A stretch of DNA of 64,000 bases from Candidatus Bathyarchaeota archaeon (GTDB lineage Archaea; Thermoproteota; Bathyarchaeia; Bathyarchaeales; Bathycorpusculaceae). This document shows, piece after piece, positions 4,293 to 5,090 of the stretch. Position 1 is the stretch's first letter. Every line of letters starts with the position of its first letter. The position numbers and the translations under genes are program-made. The notes beneath the pieces are model-generated. The model saw only the letters and a list, made by a program, of their open reading frames with translations. It was not told where the DNA came from and did not search any database. Where the stretch lies: positions 62,001-126,000 of the forward strand of contig JAOZHW010000001.1 of the NCBI GenBank assembly GCA_026014685.1. Reading direction: 5' to 3'.

Positions 4293-4376
4293 ACAAGCTC
4301 ACCTCGCAGTTGTATAATGGTTATAAGTAAGCTTAATACATTGTCTTGTGTATTAAAAACGAAAAGGCGAAAAATT
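4293..4376. promoter_or_regulatory. Divergent promoter region between the zinc-ribbon/ogt operon and the proteasome gene
   Basis: About 84 bases separate two divergent starts. The stretch is AT-rich and holds TATA-like blocks (TTATAAGTAA and CTTAATAC around 4320-4340) at a plausible distance from the proteasome start. Exact boxes cannot be fixed without transcript ends. Confidence 0.45.
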
Positions 4377-5090
4377 ATGGACGGATATGGACCACAATTA
4401 CCAACCTTACCTCAAATCCCACAGATCCCGCTCATGCCGCAGGTACAGATGCAGCAGGAACACCAGCCCCAAGGCAACCAAGCCCAGCAGGGCATCGGAT
4501 GGATTCCAGGCGCCACCACCGTCGGCGTCGTCTTTCACGGCGGAGTTCTCCTTGCAGCTGAAAAAAGAGTAACGTATGGCGGCTTCATCATGAGCAGGGG
4601 TGGGAGAAAAGTCTTTAAAGTTACAGACCGCATCGGCGTCGCCTGCGCAGGCCTCGTCGGGGACATGCAGATTCTTGCCCGAGAGATGGAGGCACAAACC
4701 AACCTGTACAGTATGGATGTCGGCAGACCAATCAGTGTTCAAAGCGCATCTAAACTGTTGGCAAATGTTCTCTTCAACAGACGCTACGCGCCACTTATTA
4801 CTCAAACCATAGTGGGCGGCTTAGACGAAGATGGCGCCCCGTCGCTATATGTCCTAGACGTTTTGGGTTCACTTATCCCAGACAAGTACGCAGCGGTCGG
4901 TTCAGGCACAGAAACAGCCATCGGCGTCATCGAAGAAGGCTACAAAGACAACATCTCGCTTAAAGACGCAAAAGAACTCGTTATTCGCGCAGTTAAAGCA
5001 GCTATCAACCGAGACGCTATGAGCGGCGACGGCTTAGATATCCTTATAATCACCAAAGACGGCGTCACTGAAGAATCCGTAAAATTCTAA
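4377..5090 (+). CDS. psmB: Proteasome beta-type subunit lacking the catalytic Thr1
   Basis: The 237-residue protein aligns with archaeal 20S beta subunits. From residue 46 the spacing matches Thermoplasma beta without gaps as far as I can recall that sequence: the VG of the N-terminal strand, EKR at 17-19, Lys33 in GGRKVF, and AGLVGD at 46-51 all coincide. In that register the residue after the pro-peptide Gly is Ala, not Thr (PGATTVGVV, against GTTTVG in active subunits). The INRDAMSGDG segment carries the Asp and Ser of the active-site cluster. A 45-residue Pro/Gln-rich leader precedes it, much longer than usual archaeal pro-peptides. I chose the ATG at 4377. The likely role is a structural or regulatory beta subunit beside an active paralogue elsewhere; cleavage one residue later, exposing the next Thr, is a less likely alternative. 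Confidence 0.88.
   Translation: MDGYGPQLPTLPQIPQIPLMPQVQMQQEHQPQGNQAQQGIGWIPGATTVGVVFHGGVLLAAEKRVTYGGFIMSRGGRKVFKVTDRIGVACAGLVGDMQILAREMEAQTNLYSMDVGRPISVQSASKLLANVLFNRRYAPLITQTIVGGLDEDGAPSLYVLDVLGSLIPDKYAAVGSGTETAIGVIEEGYKDNISLKDAKELVIRAVKAAINRDAMSGDGLDILIITKDGVTEESVKF

Follow-up and report, generated by a model that had tools for sequence, protein, structure and literature searches.

A Saci0662-type proteasome beta subunit with Ala at the Thr1 position and a genus-specific Pro/Gln-rich leader

The window (the whole 64,000-nucleotide stretch of DNA that was analysed) encodes an archaeal proteasome beta subunit, hereafter the window beta, in which Ala occupies the position of the catalytic Thr1. 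It is a known kind of subunit, the Saci0662 type, and its leader is the variant part. Sequence comparison indicates that the loss of Thr1 in such betas is ancient and widespread, and that the dead subunits of the sampled Thermoproteota and Asgard archaea go back to a single origin. Taken as a whole, we regard the following account as highly probable: the window beta is a structural subunit that would form a mixed ring with a catalytic beta, and its leader is not self-cut, the tail probably being trimmed.

Results

An archaeal beta subunit without its nucleophile

The window beta (Table 1) scored 182 bits with the Pfam family PF00227 (cut-off 22.4, E 9.6e-54) and 227 bits with the NCBIfam family TIGR03634 (cut-off 224); these scores, together with an Ntn fold, identify it as an archaeal 20S proteasome beta subunit. 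The AlphaFold model (pLDDT 88) has a confident Ntn fold after residue 46, and its top PDB matches are proteasome subunits throughout. The best are chains of 6Z46, entitled 'S. acidocaldarius 20S proteasome (Saci0613/Saci0662)', with a TM-score of about 0.9 by target length. By sequence as well as by fold, the Saci0662 of this entry is the closest solved structure.

The first-pass annotation had placed Ala at position 1, with EKR, Lys33 and AGLVGD at their canonical numbers, and this register was confirmed by alignment to the Thermoplasma acidophilum beta, which could have put a Thr there and instead gave Ala, with T2, T3, E17, R19, K33, G47, S129, D166 and S169 all in place. The junction between leader and domain reads ...GWIPG/ATTVGVVFHGGVLLAAEKRVTYGGFIMSRGGRKVFKV..., so that the context of position 1 is G/A-T-T-V-G. 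With respect to MEROPS family T1A, the window beta has Asp/Glu17, Lys33, Ser129, Asp166 and Ser169 and lacks the N-terminal Thr1 nucleophile. Glu17 was considered as a second lesion and dropped, because the T. acidophilum beta also has Glu17. A sequence error or pseudogene is ruled out by the invariance of Ala1 (see below) and by purifying selection on the domain (pooled dN/dS about 0.06 over unsaturated genus pairs). An Rfam search of the window gave no match.

Table 1 Features of the window beta gene and its upstream region
Feature	Coordinates	Strand	Basis or remark
Non-catalytic proteasome beta subunit, Saci0662 type	4377..5090	+	Whole ORF including stop, 237 aa
Conserved upstream stretch CTTAATA...TTGTGTAT, then AAAAGGCGA (4362-4370) before ATG	4332..4376	+	
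Pro/Gln-rich leader MDGYGPQLPTLPQIPQIPLMPQVQMQQEHQPQGNQAQQGIGWIPG, 45 residues including Met and Gly(-1)	4377..4511	+	Conserved in 28 genus members
Proximal motif W-I-P-G, class-wide [WYF][VILM]PG directly before position 1	4500..4511	+	Class alignment
Ala codon GCC at the catalytic Thr1 position	4512..4514	+	Alignment to T. acidophilum beta
Ntn-hydrolase-fold beta domain	4512..5087	+	AlphaFold model and alignment
Retained E17 codon	4560-4562	+	Alignment to T. acidophilum beta
Retained K33 codon	4608-4610	+	Alignment to T. acidophilum beta
Retained S129 codon	4902-4904	+	Alignment to T. acidophilum beta
Retained D166 codon	5013-5015	+	Alignment to T. acidophilum beta
Retained S169 codon	5022-5024	+	Alignment to T. 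acidophilum beta

A Thr1 beta elsewhere in the genome

The source assembly is 99.1% complete and contains four PF00227 genes: the window beta, a second beta and two alpha subunits. The second beta, L001 (G000:C1:186366), lies outside the window, about 120 kb from the window beta. It reads GTTTIG and has a complete active site (Thr1, D17, K33, S129, D166 and S169). Beside it is a gene that, by eye, we take to encode a putative KH/metallo-beta-lactamase CPSF-like nuclease. The suggestion made from the window alone, that its beta is a structural, non-catalytic one, is thus strongly supported by this second, Thr1-bearing beta, by the clade described below and by the inert relative Saci0662.

Around the window beta, MGMT-like and NadM-like genes lie upstream and AMMECR1 downstream, an arrangement that is kept within the genus and partly within the order. 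A gene of the PrsW-like intramembrane protease family (PF13367, 27 bits, barely over the cut-off) was observed at 2360-2926, between truD and the NadM-like gene.

Distribution and origin of betas without Thr1

Ala1 was found in all 94 distinct same-class orthologues sampled, as was Gly(-1), and Ala1 can therefore not be a chance feature. About 170 of the 189 class genomes gave a strong match of this type. The remainder gave weaker matches only, and by our reading of the search results many of them are incomplete or fragmented assemblies. Adding further Thermoproteota families and Asgard genomes to the class orthologues led to 194 distinct betas without Thr1 (175 with Ala at position 1, 10 with Gly and 9 with Ser) and 85 with it. 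K33 is kept in 190 of the 194 and an RDxxSG-type motif in 192, so it is probable that the fold or the interfaces depend on these helper residues. That a dead subunit keeps K33, D166 and S169 nearly invariant might also point to residual chemistry, although a structural role may account for it.

A careful tree was built with position 1 left out, from 47 non-Thr1 and 42 Thr1 rows, without L255 (see below) and 13 other long-branched or near-duplicate rows. The non-Thr1 betas of Thermoproteota and Asgard archaea, whether carrying Ala, Ser or Gly, formed one clade apart from the Thr1 betas (support 100/99), and a single change of the position-1 state was found in all 200 bootstrap trees scored. The Sulfolobales members of the Saci0662 type fall in the same clade as the window beta, across the same 100/99 branch from the Thr1 betas. 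The class of the source genome is probably Bathyarchaeia, and its phylum is that of S. acidocaldarius: genome G253, which belongs to this phylum, has a copy with 100% identity to chain H of 6Z46 (Saci0662). The genomic Saci0662 reads EELP/ATAIG, which puts Ala at position 1 there too. A contig scan with Saci0662 as the query recovered 9 distinct loci only. The first-pass annotation had taken Ala1 and the leader together as a single oddity. The two differ in age and spread: Ala1 is ancient and occurs widely, and the long leader was added later, at the level of the genus.

One exception was seen in a larger quick tree, where the Thr1 beta L255 of Nanoarchaeota archaeon MC-1, on a long branch, falls inside the dead clade; a reversal, a transfer or a long-branch artefact are possible. 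This locus (L255/L156, G395:C27:2331-2876) is the only PF00227 gene found in its 0.5 Mb genome.

Several other observations concern the variety of betas sampled. The Ser at position 1 belongs to several Sulfolobales dead-clade betas (L130-L137, L155) and the Gly to those of another family of the phylum, f38 (L140-L150); in yeast beta5, a Thr1-to-Ser change leaves partial activity (PMC4792962). Two Ala1 copies each are present in G114 (L072, L073) and G107 (L082, L083). The Lokiarchaeota genome G394 has five PF00227 genes (L254, L257-L260), two alpha-like, two for Thr1 betas and one for an Ala1 beta with the diverged start ACSVAI. In some Thermoproteota and Asgard genomes a further beta type has Met directly before Thr1 (L209, L210, L221, L226, L240, L297, L299, L302), apparently with no propeptide, so that removal of Met alone would expose Thr1. 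The catalytic beta L217 (G263:C1:1111321-1111878) lies within an uninterrupted open frame of 1238 codons, which could have arisen by chance or reflect a fusion.

The leader is long, conserved and confined to the genus

The leader contains 8 Pro and 12 Gln in its 45 residues (about 44% Pro+Gln). AlphaFold predicts no helix or strand in residues 1-46, with pLDDT values of 55-78 for the leader block. Among the sampled sequences, a long Pro/Gln leader was found only in the source genus, where its length ranges from 32 to 49 residues. In the 166 members from other genera, the longest leader that the nearest upstream stop allows has a median of 20 residues, and in 126 of them it does not exceed 30. 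The description of this leader as far longer than usual is thus right relative to other genera and not within its own, where 45 residues is normal. The leader is likewise under purifying selection (pooled dN/dS about 0.13 for unsaturated same-genus pairs, of which only 8 qualify).

The part of the leader nearest to the domain has a wider distribution. The strict form of the proximal motif ends the leader in 75 of the 94 class members, and Pro(-2) is present in 84, whereas PG precedes position 1 in none of the 85 Thr1 betas.

Translation from a later start, which would leave the protein without a long tail, has very little probability. Met codons do occur inside the leader, at positions 20 and 25; against their use, the ATG at 4377 is invariant in 28 of 28 same-genus sequences, the portion of the leader upstream of these codons is well conserved under the selection just described, and the DNA preceding the ATG is similar in nearly all 28 genus members (both CTTAATA...TTGTGTAT and AAAAGGCGA). 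This upstream stretch, which is probably a promoter element followed by a ribosome-binding site, supports the ATG at 4377 as the start.

Discussion

By analogy with the published work on Saci0662, the window beta would be inert and able to build rings. It has the fold of a normal beta, and would dock on the alpha ring and form much of the beta ring, with the Thr1 beta L001 interspersed among its copies and supplying the cutting sites. The last four leader residues, [WYF][VILM]PG, would probably remain on the subunit and occupy its dead substrate groove, while the genus-specific Pro/Gln tail may act during assembly, in the chamber, or both, and would probably be shortened in trans by the catalytic beta.

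The analogy draws on the S. acidocaldarius system, in which two betas, one of them inert, are already known (PMC4569737). The alpha subunit Saci0613 and Saci0662 form a 20S particle without activity (Anjum et al. 2015, PMC4569737). With full-length Saci0662 this particle was unstable in size exclusion, and removal of the N-terminal extension of Saci0662 stabilised the complex (PMC4569737). The other beta, Saci0909, did not assemble with alpha alone; added at a lower ratio to Saci0613 and Saci0662, it gave an active three-subunit 20S (PMC4569737). Equivalent threonines were reported in both beta subunits (Anjum et al. 2015, PMC4569737). According to the present alignment, the Saci0662 threonine of that study is Thr2, not Thr1, which explains why Saci0662 is inert.

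This bears on whether Thr2 could act as a displaced nucleophile, with processing between Ala1 and Thr2 and an active subunit as the outcome. Thr2 is present in 181 of the 194 non-Thr1 betas and the helpers K33, D166 and S169 are kept. However, Thr2 is equally invariant in the Thr1 betas (85 of 85), so its conservation is not specific to the dead ones. Moreover, the truncated Saci0662, designed to expose the residue that its authors took for Thr1 and that aligns here as Thr2, gives a 20S with no activity unless Saci0909 is added (PMC4569737), and Thr2 is therefore unlikely to be a substitute nucleophile; we give this reading scarcely any credence. That the organism would instead make separate particles, an active 20S and an inert one serving as a holdase or inhibitor, with no mixed ring, is improbable. 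Saci0613 and Saci0662 alone do form a complete inactive particle (PMC4569737; 6Z46), but the failure of Saci0909 to assemble with alpha alone, and its entry into the active three-subunit 20S, speak for a mixed ring (PMC4569737).

The fate of the leader is less straightforward. In the absence of Thr1 it cannot be cut by its own subunit, as the first-pass annotation had expected; self-cleavage is very unlikely by analogy with the Thr1-to-Ala mutants of yeast beta1, beta2 and beta5, which show no autolysis (PMC4792962). The full tail might then stay, as a protease-resistant extension inside the chamber or threaded out of it, crowding the chamber and regulating what is degraded. Purifying selection on the leader is in keeping with this, as is the placement of its prolines: a hydrophobic residue is followed by Pro in 48% of cases in the genus leaders and in 17% after shuffling, and none of 2000 shuffles reached the observed value. 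This statistic overstates independence because the 28 leaders are related; for the window leader alone p = 0.004. Hydrophobic residues before Pro would disfavour cleavage by a chymotrypsin-like site and protect the distal half. No such protection, however, extends to the Gln-rich half or to the region of W(-4). In addition, fourteen full leaders amount to about 70 kDa, or about 84 nm3, roughly the size of the whole central chamber. It is therefore unlikely that every subunit keeps its full leader, except where few copies of the subunit are present or the tail projects out of the chamber. The yeast Thr1-to-Ala subunits mentioned above carry only remnants of their propeptides (PMC4792962), and beta6 and beta7 of yeast are believed to lose theirs in trans (PMC13022661). 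Trimming therefore has to be taken seriously. On balance, trimming to near the conserved [WYF][VILM]PG, with the tail acting during assembly, seems somewhat more likely than retention, and retention of the full tail rather unlikely. It is distinctly unlikely that in this genus the propeptide of a dead beta, normally short or disposable, has become a Pro/Gln tail that resists proteolysis and stays permanently within the chamber; if it has, the tail would regulate the volume of the chamber, the entry of substrates or the size of products from inside.

Whichever the fate of the tail, the inertness of Saci0662, the only studied archaeal structural beta found, is now tied to the loss of Thr1. Since the dead subunits sampled from Thermoproteota and Asgard archaea have a common origin, mixed rings of active and dead betas are likely common there and would not be a eukaryotic invention. 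Extra betas in Asgard archaea were noted earlier (PMC5753285); our literature search, which covered few subscription journals, found no description of the Ala1 clade across both groups, nor of the leader. In the papers found, the propeptides of archaeal betas are described as lacking a known function (PMC8665760). The window beta, which cannot cleave itself and carries a tail that is conserved in its genus and specific to it, offers a clean system for seeking one.

Descent of the eukaryotic non-catalytic betas from the dead clade is not claimed. A profile search with the dead clade placed PSMB1 among the top PDB matches, which was not so with the Thr1 profile, a hint at beta6. When the seven yeast betas (sequences checked against PDB chains) were added to the tree, beta3, beta4 and beta6 grouped with the Thr1 side and beta7 attached to the dead clade with support 65/44, on a branch of 4.75. 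As three of these group with the Thr1 betas and the branch of beta7 is very long, common descent of Thr1 loss with eukaryotes is not supported; independent losses seem the simpler reading from these sequences, for beta7 only tentatively.

Comparison with known systems

Saci0662 and the window beta are of the same type. They share Ala1, Glu17, Lys33, Ser129, Asp166 and Ser169, are about 48% identical over the domain, and are each accompanied in their genome by a catalytic Thr1 beta, here L001. Residue 3 of Saci0662 is Ala, not Thr, and its leader is no longer than about 8 residues (its relatives have MEELP), with no Pro/Gln tail. The window beta departs from this usual short leader with its 45 residues, which we regard as variation and not as a defining requirement of the type; like the type, it lacks Thr at position 1. 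Since its leader is short, Saci0662 gives no information on the tail.

The catalytic archaeal betas (MEROPS T1A; T. acidophilum, A. fulgidus and L001) have in common with the window beta the fold, K33, D166, S129 and S169, and TIGR03634. They differ in their Thr1 nucleophile, in lying on the other side of the 100/99 branch, and at position -2, which is Pro in the window beta and mostly Lys, Thr or His in Thr1 betas. Eukaryotic beta3, beta4, beta6 and beta7 resemble the window beta as beta-ring subunits without an active Thr1 that are mixed with catalytic ones, and for beta6 and beta7 the resemblance may extend to a propeptide removed in trans.
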